Positions 42,177 to 51,827 of a DNA stretch of 64,000 nt are shown one piece after another (positions within the stretch are counted from its first letter, which is position 1; every line of letters starts with the position of its first letter). Origin of the DNA: Gemmatimonadetes bacterium T265 (GTDB lineage: Bacteria > Gemmatimonadota > Gemmatimonadetes > Gemmatimonadales > Gemmatimonadaceae). The translations under genes were made by a program, and so were the position numbers. The stretch lies in assembly GCA_019973575.1 (NCBI GenBank), contig BPUI01000002.1, positions 620,001 to 684,000 on the forward strand, given 5' to 3'. The notes below the pieces were generated by a model that saw nothing but the letters and a program-made list of their open reading frames with translations, had not been told where the DNA came from and did not search any database.

Positions 42177-43149
42177 TTACAGCTCGGCCATCAGCGTGTC
42201 GACCGTGACGTGGAGGGCGCTGGTGATCGTCGGCGTAGTGTGCGTGCAGATCGCCGTCGTCGCGGGGCTGCGGTGGCCTAACACCTCCTGGATCACCCGC
42301 AGGTGCACGCCCGCCTCCAGCAGCTGCGTCGCGTACGAGTGCCGGAGCGTGTGGATCGAGGCGTGCTTCGGCAGCTGGCTCTCGCGGACCACGGCGGCGA
42401 AGAGCTTCTGCAGGCTCGTCGGCCCGAGCGGCGCCTGCCCGCCCGCGCGGGAAGAGCCAGCCCGACGGGGGGGGCGGCACCCGGACGCCGCCTGCCCCCC
42501 ACGACGCGCGGCGCGGCTGCCGATGCCACGCGCGCCAGTACGCGCGCAACAGATCGAGCGGGCGGGCGGGCAGCGGGACGTAGCGGTCCTGCCCGCCCTT
42601 GCCGCGCTGGACCCGCACGAGCATGCGCCCGCTGTCGACGTCCGTCGTCCGCAGCTGCAGGCCCTCGCTCAGCCGCAGCCCGCACGAGTAGATCACGGTC
42701 AGGCACATCCGGGCGCGGGGGTCGCGCACGAGGCCGAGCAGGAGGCGGACCTCCGCGAGCGTGAGCACCACGGGCAGCACGCGGCGCTTCGCCGGGCGCA
42801 CCAGGTCGAGCACGGGGAACGTGCGCCCGAGCGTCGTCTCGACGAAGAACCGGACGCCGCCGCGGTACACGGTGAGGGTGCTGCGGGCGACGTGGCGCTC
42901 GCCGACCAGGTGCAGGAAGTACGCGCGGAGCTCGGCCTCGGTGAGCGTGGCGAGCGCCTCCACCGGGCGCCCGACGAACGTGGCGAGCCCCATGACTGCA
43001 TTCACATACGAGTCCTGGGTGCGCACGGCGTACCCGCGCAACTGCAGGTCCTCGCGCAGCCGGGTGGACAGGGGGGCGTCAGGGGGCGCCGGCGCGACCG
43101 GCGCGAGCACGGGCGACGACGAGGGGGTGAGCAGCGCGGGCGTCGACAT
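42177..43149 (-). pseudogene. Tyrosine recombinase (not an integron integrase), frameshifted and lacking the catalytic Tyr
   Basis: Site-specific recombinase of about 310 residues in the XerC/D-like or IS91-companion group. N-terminal core-binding domain: LREDLQLRGYAVRTQDSYVN and YFLHLVGERHVARSTLTVYR. Catalytic domain: [15 protein letters not shown] (Arg I) and [12 protein letters not shown] (Lys), then GWLFP. The frame is lost near 42450, beside a run of eight G. The last part, in another frame, has [31 protein letters not shown] (H-x-x-R) and [15 protein letters not shown]. The nucleophile position, normally Tyr in AIYTH, is Cys (TGC). The alpha-I2 insertion that defines IntI is not present. 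Two lesions mean it is dead. ATG 43149 is chosen as start. Confidence 0.75.
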
Positions 43150-43274: not shown

Positions 43275-43383
43275 GTTCAACGCCACAGTTAAGCTGCGGG
43301 TTTTCCAGGCGAGGTAGACCGCCCCTGCGATGAAGACGGCGGAGGAGCGGAGCGTCCGTGCATACCCGACAGCTTCAACGCCT
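43275..43383 (-). other. Integron attC site of cassette 4, main part
   Basis: Read on the minus strand: GTTGAAGCTGTC (L''), a hairpin arm, GCAGCTTAACTG (L'), TGGC and GTTGAAC (R', fitting GTTRRRY). L'' has one extra G relative to L', the usual extrahelical base. The R'' end was separated by IS110-type element 1 and lies at 44740-44747. Rejoined length is 117 bp. Confidence 0.8.
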
Positions 43384-43441
43384 TGATGTTTCCCGAGAGT
43401 CGCCGGCGCCCTACGATCCGGCACCCTCTCCAGGAGACCTC

Positions 43442-44467
43442 ATGCTGCACTCCGGCCTCGACCTGCACAAGCGGACGCTCGCCATCAGCACTGTCGACGC
43501 GGAGGGCCGCCCCGTGCGCGACGTGCAGCTGCCGACGAAGCGCGCCGCGATCACGGCCTACTTCGCCGCGCTGCCCGGTGGACCGGGCGCGCAGCGCGCG
43601 GTCGTCGAGTCCACCTCGAACTGGTACTGGCTCCGCGACCTGCTCGGGGCTCAGGGTGTTGATCTCCGGCTCGCGCACTCTAAGCATGTGAAGGCGATCA
43701 GCTACGCCAAGGTGAAGACCGACGCTGTCGATGCGGCGACCCTGGCCCAACTGCTCCGCGGCGATCTGGTCCCAGAGGCCCACATGGTGAGTGCGGAGTG
43801 GCGTGAGGCGCGCGATCTGCTGCGCGCCCGCCTGCAGCTCGTGCGACAGCAGGTCCGAGTGAAGAACACGGTCACCGGTCTGCTCGCGCAGTACAACGTG
43901 ACCGACCCGGACGCGCTGCCGCCGCTCGTGCAGCTGCGAGTGCGGCTGCTCGGCGAGCAGTTCGTGCTCTTGAGCGATCAAGCCAAGCGACTCGCCGCGG
44001 AGCTCAACCCGGTGCTCGTCCCGACGCCCGATGTACAACGGCTGCTCTGGATCCCTGGCATCGGCCGCGTGGTCGCGTTCACGATCTGGCTCGAGGTCGA
44101 CGGCGTCGCGCGCTTCCCGAGTGCCCGCGACTTCGTCAGCTACTGCCGGCTCGTGCCGGGAGCGGGCAACTCCGGCGGGAGGACGCGCCACAAGCGGACC
44201 AAGGACGGCAACCGCTACCTGAAGCTCGCCTTCAGCCACGCCGCCGTGCGTGCCATCCAGTACTTCCCCGAGATCCGCGCGTTCTACCAGCGGCTGTGTC
44301 GCCGCAAGCCGCCGGTCGTCGCGCGTGCGGTCGTCGCCAAGGAACTCGCGCGCATCGTCTACTACGTCCTCGCCAAGCAGGAGGCATTCAACGGCACATT
44401 CAAGGGCGCGCCCCTGAGTCGCACGAAGAAGCCGAAGTGGCCCCGCCTGGCCAGCCCCGCCGTCTAA
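43442..44467 (+). CDS. IS110-superfamily (IS1111-like) transposase
   Basis: A 341-residue DEDD recombinase. The RuvC-like N-terminal part has SGLDLHKRTLAISTVDAEGR (first Asp), AVVESTSNWYWLRDLL (Glu) and AYAKVKTDAVDAATLAQLL (the DxxD pair; seen here as YAKVKTDAVDA). The C-terminal Transposase_20 part has VQRLLWIPGIGRVVAFTIWL, FPSARDFVSYCRLVPGAGNSG and NRYLKLAFSHAAVRAIQY, with the serine nucleophile region around GAGNSG. ATG 43442 follows an AGGAG (CCAGGAGACCTC). It is intact and could be active on attC targets. Confidence 0.9.
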   Translation: MLHSGLDLHKRTLAISTVDAEGRPVRDVQLPTKRAAITAYFAALPGGPGAQRAVVESTSNWYWLRDLLGAQGVDLRLAHSKHVKAISYAKVKTDAVDAATLAQLLRGDLVPEAHMVSAEWREARDLLRARLQLVRQQVRVKNTVTGLLAQYNVTDPDALPPLVQLRVRLLGEQFVLLSDQAKRLAAELNPVLVPTPDVQRLLWIPGIGRVVAFTIWLEVDGVARFPSARDFVSYCRLVPGAGNSGGRTRHKRTKDGNRYLKLAFSHAAVRAIQYFPEIRAFYQRLCRRKPPVVARAVVAKELARIVYYVLAKQEAFNGTFKGAPLSRTKKPKWPRLASPAV

Positions 44468-44739
44468 CTGGAGCCCGCTCTCCGGAGCGGCGCCTCTCCG
44501 CCGTCTTTGATTGGGCGCCAGGCGGCGCTGCCGCCGCTGTACCTCTGAGACCAGCCTCCGGGCTGTGAACTCGCAATGGTGTGTGGCCGCCACGGAGGCA
44601 TCCGGGCGAGACCGGCACGAGGTAACCACGGCAGCTCCCCACCGTCGGTCGCACGGCACTACACACCCTCACCGGTCGATGGCGTAACCCGCCATCGTCA
44701 GCGCGAGCTATCCCCTCTTGCGCCCGAACTCTCGAATGG
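44468..44739 (+). ncRNA. Candidate bridge-RNA region of IS110-type element 1
   Basis: 272 bp of non-coding IS DNA after the transposase gene. It holds several inverted repeats, for example GAGCCCGCTCTCCGGAGCGG and GGCGCCAGGCGGCGCTGCCG. IS1111-group elements encode the RNA that pairs with target and donor DNA in this 3' region; that this one does so is inferred from the layout. Boundaries are the whole gap, not a mapped RNA. Confidence 0.4.
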
Positions 44740-45491: not shown

Positions 45492-45611
45492 GTCTAACGC
45501 CAGAGTTAAGCTGCGGGCTCTCACAGCGCAGAGCCGGCCGCGGTACGATCCAGACGGAAGGCGAGCCAGGAGCGTCCCCGCGTACCCGACAGCTTCAACG
45601 TCTCGTTAGGC
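45492..45611 (-). other. Integron attC site of cassette 3, intact
   Basis: 120 bp. Minus strand: R'' GCCTAAC, spacer GAGAC, L'' GTTGAAGCTGTC, a 70-bp variable arm, L' GCAGCTTAACTC, spacer TGGC, R' GTTAGAC. L'' and L' pair except for one extra G in L''. The R'' lies 2 nt after the toxin stop codon. This is the clearest attC of the array. Confidence 0.88.
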
Positions 45612-45612
45612 G

Positions 45613-45918
45613 TCAGCGGCGCGACTGCCAGCGCCGCGGGTGCCGCCGCCCGTGCACGACCGCGATCACGGTCGGCCCCTCGGGCAGCGCGACGTAGTAG
45701 ACCACGTACGGGAACCGGGCCACCACCGCCTTCCGGACGTCATCGAGCGCGACCGGGAACCGCTCGGGCTCGCGGTCGACCGCGGCGAAGACCACCGCCA
45801 CCGCGCGCAGGAACTCGTGCCCGAGCCCGGGCGTCTTCCCCTCGTACCACCGGAACGCCTCGGCCACGTCGCGCCGGACGAGCCGGCGGACCGCGAGCCG
45901 CCCCGGCGCGGGAATCAC
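45613..45918 (-). CDS. ParE/RelE-family toxin of a cassette-borne toxin-antitoxin pair
   Basis: A 101-residue mRNA-interferase- or gyrase-poison-type toxin fold. GTG 45918 overlaps the antitoxin stop (GTGTGA). The sequence runs LVRRDVAEAFRWYEGKTPGL, then GHEFLRAVAVVFAAVDREPE, RFPVALDDVRKAVVARFPYV, VYYVALPEGPTVIAVVHGRR and HPRRWQSRR. The EAFxWYE helix, the FPYxVYY strand and the final HxRRxP-type basic tail are classic for RelE/ParE. The stop TGA lies directly before the attC R''. Such pairs stabilise large cassette arrays in other chromosomal integrons. Target not determinable from sequence. Confidence 0.85.
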   Translation of the reverse strand: MIPAPGRLAVRRLVRRDVAEAFRWYEGKTPGLGHEFLRAVAVVFAAVDREPERFPVALDDVRKAVVARFPYVVYYVALPEGPTVIAVVHGRRHPRRWQSRR

Positions 45919-46130
45919 ACCCCGCGCTCGGCGATCTCGGCCAGCACGACCTCCCACGGCTCGCCCCGGTCGCCGTCGGCGGCCAGCTCGGCCCGTCGGC
46001 GGCGCAACTCCGCCGCCTGCTCGTCGTCCGGCCCGACGGCGGCGGCATCCAGGCTGTCCCAGAGCTGCTCGGCGAGCTCGATCCGCTCGTCGGGCGTGAG
46101 GTGGCTGAAGTCGAGGACGGGGGTCGGCAT
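45915..46130 (-). CDS. Antitoxin of the cassette-borne pair (addiction-module component family)
   Basis: 71 residues: MPTPVLDFSHLTPDERIELA, EQLWDSLDAAAVGPDDEQAA, ELRRRRAELAADGDRGEPWE, VVLAEIAERGV. The pattern LTxxERxELxExLWDSL ... LxRRxAEL ... G..PWEEV is that of the short unstable antitoxins that partner RelE/ParE toxins. It precedes and overlaps the toxin by 4 nt. The 120 bp between its start and the R' of the previous attC should hold its own promoter, but no clear -35/-10 pair is visible. Confidence 0.85.
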   Translation of the reverse strand: MPTPVLDFSHLTPDERIELAEQLWDSLDAAAVGPDDEQAAELRRRRAELAADGDRGEPWEVVLAEIAERGV

Positions 46131-46249
46131 GCCCCGAATCTGGGGCCCGGCCGGCGCGCCGGCAACCGGCGCGGGGACGGGGCGTTACGGTCCCCGCGGC
46201 GCGGGCGGCGGCCGCGCGACCTCCCGGCCGAGCCTCGGGGCGTGTTGAC

Positions 46250-46350
46250 GCCTAACGCCCAAGTTAAGCTGCAAGCCTTCGGGGCGGGATGACGGCGGCG
46301 TACGGTGGAGCACGCCGGGGCGCACGGGCGTCCCCGCATACTTGGCAGCT
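46250..46350 (-). other. Integron attC site of cassette 2, main part
   Basis: Minus strand: AGCTGCCAAG (remaining L'' side), hairpin arm, GCAGCTTAACTTGGGC (L' and spacer), R' GTTAGGC at 46250-46256. The R'' end (47830-47846) has been separated by IS110-type element 2. Rejoined length 118 bp. Confidence 0.8.
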
Positions 46351-46561
46351 GGTATGCTCGGTGGCACGGGCGGGCGCCGCCGCGGTAATCTGCGGGGCGG
46401 GCCGGGGCTTCGCTGCCTGACAGCCGAGGGCCCCTCCTCTTGTTGAAGACTGCGCGTCCGGCTCCCCTGCGCTTTTGGCTCGAGACGGCGCCGTCCGTTG
46501 ATCTGGCGACCCGCAGGCGCGGGGGCCGGCGCGCCCCGCCCCTCACCCGGCGGGACGTCAC
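46351..46561 (+). ncRNA. Candidate bridge-RNA region of IS110-type element 2
   Basis: 211 bp between the left end and the transposase ATG. IS110-group elements encode in this position the bridge RNA whose loops pair with the target and the element ends. The region shows short inverted repeats (GGGCGGGCCGGGGCTTCG area and GAGGGCCCCTCCTC). Identity is inferred from position only; I could not fold it. Confidence 0.4.
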
Positions 46562-47812
46562 ATGCTGTACCTCGGGATCGACGTCGGCAAGCGGCACCAC
46601 GAGGCCGCGCTCCTCGACGACGCCGGCGCGCTGGTCTGGCGCCAGCGGCTCGGCGCCGGGCGTGACGGGTTCGCCGTCTCGGGCGAGCGCCTAACGGCCG
46701 CCGACCCGGCGCAGCTCACGGTCGCGCTGGAGGCGACGGGCGTGTACTGGCTCGCGCTCCACGCGTGGCTGACCGAGCGCGGGGCCGCGCGGGTCGTGGT
46801 GCTCAATCCGCTCCAGACCCGGGCCTTCCGCACCGCGAACCTGCGCGGTAGCAAGACCGACCGGATCGACGCCGTCGCGCTCGCGCGGCTCGTGCGCTGG
46901 ATGGGAGCGTCGCTTTCCGGCCATGTCCGCCCCGAGGAGCGCCGGGCCGCCGCGCGCGACGTCGCCCGGCTCCGCACGGAGCTCGTCGAGCTGCGCGCCC
47001 GGCAGCTCGTCAAGCTCGGGGCGCTCCTGGACCGCACCTTCCCGGAGTTCCGCCCCGCGTTCGGCAAGCTCGGGAGCACGAGCGCGCTCGCCGTGCTCGC
47101 CCGCTGGGCGACGCCGGCAGCGTGAGGCGCCGCGGACGAGGCCGAGGTCGCGGCCGTGCTCGCCCGCGCGAGCCGCGGCATGCTCGGCGCGGCGAAGGCG
47201 GCCGAGCGGCGCGCGGCCGCGGCCGGCTCGTTGGGCACGCCCGACCCGCTCGACGCCGCGGCGGTCGCGGTGCGCACCCTCGTCGGCCACGTCGAGCACC
47301 TCGACGGCCAGGTCGCCGCCCTGGGCGCGCGGCTCGGCGAGCTGCTCGCGCCCGACGCCGCGCTGGAGGTGCTCCTGCGCTCGTGCCCCGGCGTCGGCGT
47401 CGACACGGCGCGCACGGTCACGCCGCTGGCGTGGCTCGCGGAGGCCCCGCCGGTCGCGCGCGTGCGGGGCAAGGACGGCGCCGACAAGCTCGTCGCGCTC
47501 ATCGGCCTCGACGCCCGGGTCGCAGAGTCGGGGGCGTCGGCCGGGCGGCCGCGGATGAGCAAGCGCGGCAACCGCTACCGGCGCCGCGCGCTGATGCTCG
47601 CCGCCGAGGTCGCGGCCCGCACCGACCCGCAGTGCAAGGCCATCCTCGCCAAGCAGCGCGCGCGGGGCAAGCACTACCGGGTGGCGGTCAGCCACGTCGC
47701 CCGGAAGCTGGTGCACATCCTCTACGCCGTGCGCGCGCACGAGCGGCCCTACGCCCTCCCGGCCGCGTACGCGCCGCCTACCCCCAGCCCGGAGGTGCTC
47801 GCCGGGGCTTGA
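46562..47812 (+). pseudogene. IS110-family transposase with an in-frame TGA
   Basis: ATG 46562 opens a DEDD recombinase: LYLGIDVGKRHHEAALLDDA (first Asp), TVALEATGVYWLALHAWL (Glu) and NLRGSKTDRIDAVALARLV (Asp pair), then helices to LAVLARWATPAA. A TGA stands at 47123-47125. The same frame goes on with AADEAEVAAVLARASRGMLG, GVGVDTARTVTPLAWLAEAP, MSKRGNRYRRRALMLAAEVA and HYRVAVSHVARKLVHILYAV, the C-terminal half. Only one codon is wrong over 417. The product is therefore split unless TGA is read through. A single substitution in an otherwise complete gene suggests recent inactivation. Confidence 0.85.
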
Positions 47813-47829
47813 CGTCGCTTAGCTCGTCT

Positions 47830-47846
47830 TCAACGCCTCGTTCGGC
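47830..47846 (-). other. Displaced R'' end of the attC of cassette 2
   Basis: Minus strand GCCGAAC (R'', one mismatch to RYYYAAC), GAGGC and GTTGA, the start of L''. It follows the TAA of the cassette 2 gene directly and joins the attC body at 46350 when the IS is removed. Confidence 0.75.
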
Positions 47847-48358: not shown

Positions 48359-48476
48359 GCCGAACGCCCAAGTTCAGCAGCGGGCTTTCGGGGCGCAACA
48401 CCGGTCGCGTATGACGGACCACACGGCCGCGCTGCGACGTCCCCGCATGCCCGACTCCTGCAACGCATCGTTAGGC
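48359..48476 (-). other. Integron attC site of cassette 1, intact
   Basis: 118 bp. Minus strand: R'' GCCTAAC, GATGC, L'' GTTGCAGGAGTC, arm containing GCATGCGGGGACGTC, L' GCTGCTGAACTTGGGC, R' GTTCGGC (one mismatch to GTTRRRY). The stop codon of the cassette 1 gene is the TAA inside R''. Confidence 0.82.
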
Positions 48477-48962: not shown

Positions 48963-49027
48963 TGGAGTTGCCCCGCTGAAACGGACGCCTCGATAAGCTC
49001 TGCTATGCTGCAGGGCGGAGGTGGACG

Positions 49028-49354
49028 ATGGCGGGAGAGCCGAAGACGCGGCGCGCGTTCAGTGCCGAATTCAAGATCGAAGCGTTGCGCCGGATGGCGG
49101 AGCGGCGCGCAGCCGGGGTGTCGCTGAAGCAGATCGGCCGCGAGCTGGATGTACGAGACGACCTGCTGCGGAAGTGGCAGCGCCAAGCCAAGGAGCGCGC
49201 CGGGGCGCCGCCCGCCGACGTGTTCCCCGGGCAGGGGCGGTTGCCGGCGGACGAGGCCGAGTTGAAGCGCCTGGAACGGGAGAACGCGCGGCTGAAGCAG
49301 GAGGTCGCGTTTCTAAAAACCGCGGCGGTGTACTTCGCGAGGGAGTCGCGGTGA
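49028..49354 (+). CDS. IS3-family transposase OrfA (element C)
   Basis: 108 residues: MAGEPKTRRAFSAEFKIEAL, RRMAERRAAGVSLKQIGREL, DVRDDLLRKWQRQAKE (helix-turn-helix). The zipper LKRLERENARLKQEVAFLKT closes it. ATG 49028 follows GGCGGAGGTGG. An A-rich run (CTAAAAAC, about 49312-49320) near its end may promote the -1 shift into orfB, which overlaps by 4 nt in the -1 frame. Confidence 0.9.
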   Translation: MAGEPKTRRAFSAEFKIEALRRMAERRAAGVSLKQIGRELDVRDDLLRKWQRQAKERAGAPPADVFPGQGRLPADEAELKRLERENARLKQEVAFLKTAAVYFARESR

Positions 49355-50241
49355 GCGACAAGTACGCCGTGATCGCGGCCGAGCGCGGGACGTACCCCGT
49401 GCGATGGATGTGCGCGCTGTTGGGCGTGAGCGTGGCCGGCTTCTACGGCGCACAGCGCCGGCCGCCGGGCACGCGCGCCGCCGCGGACGAGCGGGTGCGG
49501 GTGGAGGTGCGCGCCGCACACGCGAAGAGTCACCGGCGCTACGGGGCGCCGCGAGTGCATCGCGAGCTGCGCGCGGCCGGCGTACGCGTCGCCAAGAAGC
49601 GCGTCGCGCGGCTCATGCGCGAGGACGGCCTCGTGGCGCGCCGCGCGCAGCGCCGCGTACGCACGACCGACTCGGCGCATGCGCACCCGGTCGCGCCGAA
49701 CGTGGTGGCGCGCGACTTCGCGGTCGCGGACCAGCCCGGGCTCGACCGCGTTTGGGTCGCCGATTTCACGTACATCCCCACGCGCGAGGGCTGGCTGTTC
49801 CTGGCGGTCGTGCTCGACCTGGCGAGCCGCCGCGTGGTGGGGTGGGCGGTGCGCGAGACGATGGAGACCGAGCTCGTGCTCGCGGCCCTGCATGCGGCGC
49901 TCGCCGACCGGCGCCCCGCGCCCGGGCTCGTGTGTCACTCGGATCGTGGGTCGCAATACGCGAGCGCGGCCTACCAGGTGCTGCTCGCTGCGTCTGGCGC
50001 GGTGCCGAGCATGAGCGCAAAAGGCGATTGCTACGATAATGCTGTTGCCGAGGCCTTCTTCGCGACGCTCGAACACGAGCTACTGGCTGATGTCACCTTC
50101 GTGTCGCGCGCGGCGGCGCGGCCCGCGATCTTCGACTTCCTCTTCTGGTACAACGGCGAGCGGCGCCACTCGAGCCTCGACTACGTGAGTCCCGTCGCCT
50201 ATGAGCAGCACCTGACCGCGCGCCCCGCGCGAGCAGCCTAA
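49351..50241 (+). CDS. IS3-family transposase OrfB (element C)
   Basis: 296-residue catalytic part: YPVRWMCALLGVSVAGFYGA, HRRYGAPRVHRELRAAGVRV, VWVADFTYIPTREGWLFLAV (first Asp), VCHSDRGSQYASAAYQ (second), and DCYDNAVAEAFFATLEHELL with the catalytic Glu. It ends WYNGERRHSSLDYVSPVAYE. GTG 49351 overlaps the orfA stop. Intact and probably functional as the OrfAB fusion. It is related to, but clearly different from, element A. Confidence 0.92.
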   Translation: MSDKYAVIAAERGTYPVRWMCALLGVSVAGFYGAQRRPPGTRAAADERVRVEVRAAHAKSHRRYGAPRVHRELRAAGVRVAKKRVARLMREDGLVARRAQRRVRTTDSAHAHPVAPNVVARDFAVADQPGLDRVWVADFTYIPTREGWLFLAVVLDLASRRVVGWAVRETMETELVLAALHAALADRRPAPGLVCHSDRGSQYASAAYQVLLAASGAVPSMSAKGDCYDNAVAEAFFATLEHELLADVTFVSRAAARPAIFDFLFWYNGERRHSSLDYVSPVAYEQHLTARPARAA

Positions 50242-50272
50242 ACTCCGCGTCCGTTCCTCGGGGTCAGCTCCA

Positions 50273-50776
50273 GCTGGCGCGCCTCCAGCAAGCGGAGTCC
50301 GGCCCCGTAGAGCACCGTCCCGACCAAGCCGTACGGCGGCCATCCCGAGACGGAGAGCCGACCCAAGGCCGCGAGCACGGCCTGCACCTCGGCGCGCGCC
50401 AACACCGTCGGTAGCCCGCGCGGGCGCTTCGCGCGAGTCACGTCGGCGAGCCGCGGCAGCGGCGCCCCGAGGACCGGGCCGTAGAGGAAGAGCAACGCCG
50501 CGAGCGCCTGATTCTGCGTCGACGCGCTCACCCCCCGGGCGGTGGCCAGGTGCGACAGGAACGCCTCCACCGCGGGGGTGCCGAGAGTCTCGGGTGCCGA
50601 CCGCCGGCGTGGTGCACGAAGCGGCGGACCCACCCGGCGTAGGCGTCCTCGGTCCGGCGGCTGTAGTGCCGGACGCGTGCGGCGGCGCGCACGCGCGCGA
50701 GCAGGCGCGGGGCGCCCGGGGCAGGTGCGGACGCGGCGACACCGGACGCGCGTAACGGCACGGACGTGACGTGCAT
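50273..50776 (-). pseudogene. intI: Integron integrase intI, N-terminal half only, frameshifted
   Basis: The first half of an integron tyrosine recombinase. From ATG 50776: RVRHYSRRTEDAYAGWVRRF and VHHAGGRHP. After a one-base loss near 50595 it continues in another frame: ETLGTPAVEAFLSHLATARG, VSASTQNQALAALLFLYGPV, then RPRGLPTVLARAEVQAVLAA and VLYGAGLRLLEARQ. The HYSxRTExAYxxWVRxF opening, the STQNQALxALLFLY helix and YGAGxRLLE (first catalytic Arg) are those of IntI proteins, not of phage or Xer recombinases. IS3 element C begins at LLEARQ, removing the IntI-specific insertion, the Lys, the HxxR and the catalytic Tyr. It cannot be active. Confidence 0.85.
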
Positions 50777-51156: not shown

Positions 51157-51168
51157 GATGAGTGGTAG

Positions 51169-51242
51169 TCGGGGCGACTGGATTCGAACCAGCGACCTCC
51201 TGCTCCCGAAGCAGGCGCTCTACCGGGCTAAGCTACGCCCCG
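51169..51242 (-). tRNA. tRNA-Pro (CGG)
   Basis: Minus strand begins CGGGGCGTAGCTTAGCCCGG. The acceptor CGGGGCG pairs with CGCCCCG, the anticodon arm is CCTGCTTCGGGAGCAGG with anticodon CGG, and the T arm is GGTTCGAATCC. CCA is not encoded directly after the discriminator A. Last gene of the five-tRNA run. Confidence 0.95.
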
Positions 51243-51322
51243 TTGGGTAATGCCGAACTGGTGTGGCGGTGGTGCCGGGATGTTGCTGATACGACAACGG
51301 GTCCGGTGGGACCGGACCCGTA

Positions 51323-51396
51323 CGCGCCCGAGAGGACTCGAACCTCTAACCTTCTGATCCGTAGTCAGATGCTCTATCCAATTGAGCTACGGGCGC
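51323..51396 (-). tRNA. tRNA-Arg (ACG)
   Basis: Begins GCGCCCGTAGCTCAATTGGA. The acceptor pairs with CGGGCGC, the anticodon loop CTACGGA has anticodon ACG (A34 normally edited to inosine), and the T arm is GGTTCGAGTCC. CCA not encoded. Confidence 0.95.
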
Positions 51397-51477
51397 AAAC
51401 CGGATCGCGAAGCTAGCCGGCGCCGAACCGGCCCGTCAAGCGGCCGGTGCGGTCGGCCGGCGCGGCGGACCGGCGAG

Positions 51478-51551
51478 TGAGCGGTACAAGACTCGAACTT
51501 GTGACCTCCACGATGTCAACGTGGCGCTCTAACCAACTGAGCTAACCGCCC
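51478..51551 (-). tRNA. tRNA-Val (GAC)
   Basis: Begins GGGCGGTTAGCTCAGTTGGT. The acceptor pairs with ACCGCTC with one G-U pair, the anticodon loop TTGACAT gives GAC, and the T arm is AGTTCGAGTCT. CCA not encoded. Confidence 0.95.
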
Positions 51552-51607
51552 GGATTGTCAAAGAGAGGTGCCGACCGACCGTGCCGGCTGCCGATCACGG
51601 TCGTGCA

Positions 51608-51680
51608 AGCGGGAAACGGGACTCGAACCCGCGACCCCAACCTTGGCAAGGTTGTGCTCTACCAACTGAGCTATTCCCGC
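51608..51680 (-). tRNA. tRNA-Gly (GCC)
   Basis: Begins GCGGGAATAGCTCAGTTGGT. The acceptor pairs with TTCCCGC, the anticodon arm CAACCTTGCCAAGGTTG gives GCC, and the T arm is GGTTCGAGTCC. Discriminator U, as common for glycine. Confidence 0.95.
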
Positions 51681-51754
51681 GCGTGAGATCGTACGTCCGC
51701 GCGCCCGACGGTCGCGCTACCGATCCAGGGTCACCCCGCCGTCGTGGCCGGGGA

Positions 51755-51827
<73 letters not shown>

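Follow-up and report, generated by a model that had tools for sequence, protein, structure and literature searches.

RNA-guided targeting of integron attC sites is already known for insertion sequences (ISs) of the IS1111 group, as described in PMC11187229 and the references therein; these elements form the IS1111-attC group (ISKpn4, ISPst6, ISPa21, and ISPa25), for which seekRNA has been shown (Siddiquee 2024, PMC11187229). Disruption of attC by ISPa21 has also been suggested to freeze cassette arrays (PMC11616780). In this study, we analyzed an IS110-group element that splits an attC within a 64,000-nucleotide stretch of the 5.6-Mb genome of Gemmatimonadetes bacterium T265 (G000:C2:620001-684000, hereafter the window). 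The ends of the element, its CT core, its leader guides, and the match between these guides and the attC arms were read directly from the sequence, and they make it very probable that the element belongs to the IS110 group of insertion sequences and that its leader RNA directs the recombinase to integron attC.

A small array of integron cassettes lies in the window, its attC sites starting at 43275, 45492, 46250, and 48359. The third of these, spanning 46250-47846, was found to be interrupted, reading GGCAG-CT, then 1477 bp, then CT-TCAACG. Its two parts and the intact neighbors are as follows.

46250..46350, plus strand: left part of the split attC, with the R''-L'' arm at 46250-46272, then the spacer and the beginning of the L' box up to core CT (46349-46350); the arm, GCCTAACGCCCAAGTTAAGCTGC, shows 0 mismatches to the attC 5' arm of the same genome
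47828..47846, plus strand: right part of the split attC, comprising core CT, the remaining L' box, and the R' box (GTTCGGC), read from the sequence
45492..45611, plus strand: neighboring intact attC, among the best-scoring targets of either guide set, at its L' and L'' arms
48359..48476, plus strand: neighboring intact attC

The left junction ends in ATACTTGGCAG-CT (core CT at 46349-46350) and the right junction reads CT (47828-47829)-TCAACGCCTCGTTCGGC. Since exactly two bases, CT, are common to both junctions, the core was assigned as CT, and the junction letters agreed with the original prediction that a 1477-bp IS bounded by CT on both sides had split an attC. Rejoining the flanks without the element yielded a 120-bp attC with pairing L boxes. 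The actual left flank of the insertion is TTGGCAG, where the attC consensus is CCGACAG. The other attC sites of the window had been said to share a single reading, which held for two of the three (GACAGCTTCAACG) and failed for the third (GACTCCTGCAACG).

The element itself is composed of the following parts.

46351..47827, plus strand: IS110-group insertion sequence, 1477 bp between CT cores, delimited from the sequence and from relatives with the same ends
46351..46561, plus strand: left end (LE), a 211-nt leader with a putative bridge/seek RNA, based on alignment with the leaders of relatives and on the guides
46562..47812, plus strand: IS110 transposase/recombinase gene (DEDD and Transposase_20, from domain matches), with an in-frame TGA at 47123-47125
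47813..47827, plus strand: short right end (RE), 15 nt; the LE is far longer than the RE, which is the IS110-group pattern

Both IS110 domains were shown to be encoded by the window element (PF01548, 1.1e-32; PF02371, 6.6e-13), and the DEDD positions are conserved in its transposase, which also matched the IS621 structure chain at 3e-13. The recombinase is about 420 aa long. The intact transposase of a cousin lineage in the same genome exceeded the cut-off of NF033542, the NCBIfam model for IS110 RNA-guided transposases. The assignment to the IS110 group, as originally proposed, was borne out by the two diagnostic domains together with the long LE (211 nt; 226 nt in the cousin) and the short RE (15 nt). 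Judged by the place of its putative non-coding region, the window element is of the IS110 type and not of the IS1111 type. No non-coding RNA region was found downstream of its transposase gene, where only 15 nt follow the stop codon; no subterminal inverted repeats were seen on reading the ends of the element, a systematic search not having been made. Meanwhile, the in-frame TGA, which the original prediction did not mention, falls where the reading frames of the relatives are open, and the window copy is therefore probably dead or immobile, with a mismatch in one donor guide pointing the same way.

The aligned leaders share a scaffold (CCGAGGG...TCCTCT, CCGGCTCCCCTGCGCT) broken by differing blocks, and on this alignment the differing blocks are the predicted guides, as listed below for the window element.

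46417..46423, plus strand: left target guide CTGACAG, matching 6/7 to the attC consensus CCGACAG and 5/7 to the actual left flank TTGGCAG
46442..46448, plus strand: right target guide GTTGAAG, the reverse complement of CTTCAAC, matching 7/7
46475..46482, plus strand: left donor guide candidate TTGGCTCG; the right IS end reads TTAGCTCG-T-CT, and in the cousin lineage the candidate varies along with the IS end
46508..46513, plus strand: right donor guide candidate GACCCG, matching 4/6 to TACCAG (reverse complement of CTGGTA); the relative with 81% DNA identity reads GACCAG

The window-type guides CTGACAG and GTTGAAG matched the L' target (C)CGACAG-CT-TCAAC at 13/14 positions, and the cousin guides AAGTTAAG and CCTGCAG matched the L'' target AAGTTAAG-CT-GCGGG equally well (13/14; one G-U pair). 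In the leaders of both lineages the target guides occupy homologous positions and differ as the targets differ, the left (bottom-strand) guide lying 5' and the right (top-strand) guide 3'. Moreover, the guides are in effect swapped between the lineages (GTTGAAG with AGTTAAG; TGACAG with CTGCAG), as expected from L' and L'' being inverted copies of each other. Both lineages would then read the same box from opposite sides with their guides exchanged accordingly, which we infer from comparing the sequences and not from a reconstructed history. The donor-guide candidates likewise vary with the IS ends (GGCTCG/AGCTTG versus AGCTCG/AGCTTG; GACCAG/CACGAG versus TACCAG/TACGAG), and the GACCCG of the window copy has one further mismatch. 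The 211-bp leader, which had been pointed to as the place of a bridge RNA, carries putative target guides at the positions predicted for an IS110 bridge/seek RNA, and the further proposal that the element was guided to attC by its own RNA gains support from guides that match the arms and change with the target.

A DNA search of the genome identified four further copies besides the window element. One of these, with 81% DNA identity (C1:365022), is truncated at its right end, adjoins an integron integrase gene, and is preceded by CCCGACAG-CT, the same attC L' arm as that used by the window element. The other three, which represent the cousin lineage, are identical and intact copies on C3 of 1514 bp each with 59% protein identity to the window element, and sit in AAGTTAAG-CT / CT-GC(G/C)GGTTG, the opposite (L'') attC arm. 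All five copies, the window one included, are located at attC CT cores and oriented in the attC direction; none was found at an unrelated target, where copies had been named as counting against guidance to attC, and the placement of five of five at attC exceeds chance. About 3.3 kb of sequence, downstream cassettes included, is common to two of the three intact copies on C3, which may therefore go back to one insertion duplicated later. This duplicated block of IS110 element and downstream cassettes (C3:17566-20862, locus L120; C3:116907-120205, locus L121) is 99.8% identical, with one edge at the L'' arm of the IS-holding attC and the other within the R''/L'' arm of a downstream attC. An IS110 piece at C6:92266 near an attC was considered as a further attC copy and rejected, as it lies about 1.4 kb off and not inside the site. 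Close relatives outside this genome were found neither at E<=1e-40 among 288 genomes of the order nor at E<=1e-60 among 395 genomes of the phylum, and a scan of 84,980 species genomes together with a search of viral contigs and plasmids retrieved only relatives with 26-44% identity, which left too little for aligning the leader in depth.

To use the guides as a predictor, they were scored in fixed register over 16,460 CT sites in the fetched stretches and the window. With the window-type guides the seven top-scoring sites were all attC L' arms; with the cousin guides the top nine were all attC L'' arms. As the stretches had been picked for holding attCs, the whole genome was also searched with 14-mers derived from the guides, allowing at most one mismatch; 7 of the 9 places found with the window type and 4 of 4 with the cousin type were attC. 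The fixed-register prediction is a strong result, while the matches obtained with guide position left free, given below, are notable and not overwhelming.

Joining the right end of the element to its left end produced a further candidate feature, the two halves of which lie at opposite ends of the linear element.

47809..47814, plus strand: TTGACG, -35 half of a predicted circle-junction promoter (9/12, 17-bp spacer across the joined ends)
46353..46358, plus strand: TATGCT, -10 half of the same predicted promoter (9/12, 17-bp spacer across the joined ends)

For the window type the joined ends read TTGACG-17 bp-TATGCT, and for the cousin they read TTGATC-17 bp-TATAGT; of about 64,000 positions in the window, 3 attain a score of 9/12. 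In either lineage, circularization would bring together a promoter with a spacer of 17 bp, in line with the junction promoters described for circles of IS110 and IS1111 elements (PMC11187229).

Several observations weigh against guidance by a leader RNA. The guides were first spotted by inspection, and when their position is not fixed each match is modest, being equaled by 28, 21, and 17 of 3000 random CT sites; the degenerate flank of the window copy itself (12/14) was equaled by 310 of 3000. Structure was assessed from only three distinct leader sequences, the lack of a close relative outside this genome keeping the copy set small. The consensus fold of the three leaders contains two stem-loops with an energy no better than that of shuffles, shuffled sequence folds at least as stably as 46403-46520 (z +1.78), and the unconstrained minimum-energy fold pairs the guides in part. 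Fold energy was rejected as evidence for a leader RNA, and an Rfam search of the leader returned no family match. The original prediction had called for a structured RNA with loops matching the attC arms: guides that match the arms do occur in the leader, and the folding energy lends no support to the structure.

One rival explanation is recognition of the attC by its shape. Group IIC introns target attC through its hairpin or single-stranded form, and an attC that is structured and targeted by unrelated elements could likewise be recognized here by the recombinase or element as a folded hairpin or single strand, with the leader matches being secondary. We consider this very improbable: the lineages use different arms and their guide letters switch, whereas protein recognition predicts no letter-by-letter tracking, and the IS110-family members tested so far require their RNA (PMC11187229, PMC11208160). 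The copies might instead have spread passively inside gene cassettes moved by the integron integrase, genes for which are present in the genome; the 3.3 kb shared by two identical C3 copies also means that at least one copy may stem from block duplication. Integron integrases, however, exchange strands at R' and not within the L boxes, and the remaining copies differ in their flanking cassettes on both sides, in attC arm, and in position. No fewer than four separate insertions into attC would be required, which leaves passive spread very improbable. A single insertion, taken alone, would be weak evidence, since an IS110 element of other specificity could have struck an attC, a common repeat here, by chance. 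Such an accident is hardly credible because the other copies are all at attC as well, although attC makes up a tiny fraction of the genome, and because the guides point to attC genome-wide.

Under guidance by the leader RNA, a RuvC-like recombinase would exchange strands at the CT, and the element would insert with no bases lost. The two lineages would apply this scheme to complementary L boxes, that of the window on L' and the cousin on L''. Insertion parts the two arms of the attC and would be expected to lock the junction between cassettes, a lock that would be reversible if the element can leave precisely.

The array contains a second insertion, described by the following features.

43275..43383, plus strand: attC, delimited as a site at 43275-43391, interrupted on the R' side by a second element, of IS1111 type
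43384..44739, plus strand: the second IS110-family element, IS1111 type, with short left end and long right end

This element, with its tnp gene at 43442-44467 and the subterminal inverted repeat CGAGAGT/ACTCTCG, is inserted in the attC between GCCT and CGTTAG, is present four times in the genome, each time at the identical attC position, and resembles the IS1111-attC type. Short target matches that could serve as its RNA guides were sought in its right end, and nothing clear was found. Decayed integron-integrase fragments on the minus strand flank the cassette array (42225-43062 and 50268-50701), and better-preserved intI genes lie elsewhere (C3:115000, C1:366680, and C3:192486, one with a TGA). 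An inverted integron arrangement is seen in L121 (C3:115000-129410) and L123 (C1:365022-367612), where the array is faced by the integrase gene instead of diverging from it and the attCs point at the integrase. The cassette before the split attC (45613-46133) encodes a minus-strand toxin-antitoxin pair (Unstab_antitox PF09720, 1.3e-15), its ParE-like match being weak (0.0015) and under its cut-off. An IS3-type transposase pair (HTH_Tnp_1, rve) lies at 49021-50241 between the last attC and the second integrase fragment, and five tRNA genes (Pro, Arg, Val, Gly, and Ala) stand on the minus strand at 51168-51827 beside the integron.

A broader picture, which we offer as tentative, would be that of an integron-specialized IS110-group lineage able, through leader RNAs with swapped guides, to occupy either L box of any attC beside the R'-side IS1111-type element. 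Jointly these elements might serve as locks on cassette shuffling that are RNA-programmed and reversible, with the attC-resident elements riding along with cassette blocks. If leader-RNA guidance holds, this would be, as far as the literature searched shows, the first IS110-group (leader-RNA) lineage aimed at attC. It would also be a natural guide-reprogramming experiment within one genome, in which related recombinases changed both guides together for the opposite arm of a palindromic site. Furthermore, a cassette array parasitized at three distinct attC positions by two RNA-guided element classes would bear on the reasons for which certain integrons turn static.

What would be new is an IS110-group lineage with upstream RNA that cuts the L boxes and has guides exchanged between arms; attC targeting itself is known from the IS1111 group. 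The literature searched, in which the founding IS1111-attC papers were represented by papers citing them, described no IS110-group element at attC. The window element is like the IS1111-attC group in having a DEDD transposase, a putative RNA that matches both strands of the target over short stretches, and specific insertion into integron attC, which is thereby disrupted. In contrast, their RNA lies downstream of the gene and that of the window element upstream; they carry subterminal inverted repeats where the window element has a 15-nt right end; their guide order is reversed (top-strand match 5' to bottom-strand match) compared with the IS110-like order here; and their target is at one end of attC instead of the L' or L'' box. 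The IS110-type ISEc21 has the same guide order as the window element, left then right (PMC11187229). Like the bridge RNA elements IS621 and ISEc21, the window element has a predicted leader-encoded guide RNA with left and then right target guide followed by donor guides (PMC11208160, PMC11187229), a predicted circle-junction promoter, a DEDD and Transposase_20 recombinase, and the 2-bp CT core of IS621. It differs from them in its target, attC instead of the repetitive extragenic palindromic (REP) elements of IS621 or the IS3-family transposase genes of ISEc21, and in the longer recombinase of its lineage, about 420 aa, which resembles the 395-455 aa branch to which IS110 itself belongs. As in the ISEc11/ISXne4 and ISEc21/ISMch6 reprogramming pairs, the guide letters of related elements differ as their targets do (PMC11187229); unlike those pairs, both lineages here stay on attC, at opposite arms, with their putative guides in effect exchanged.
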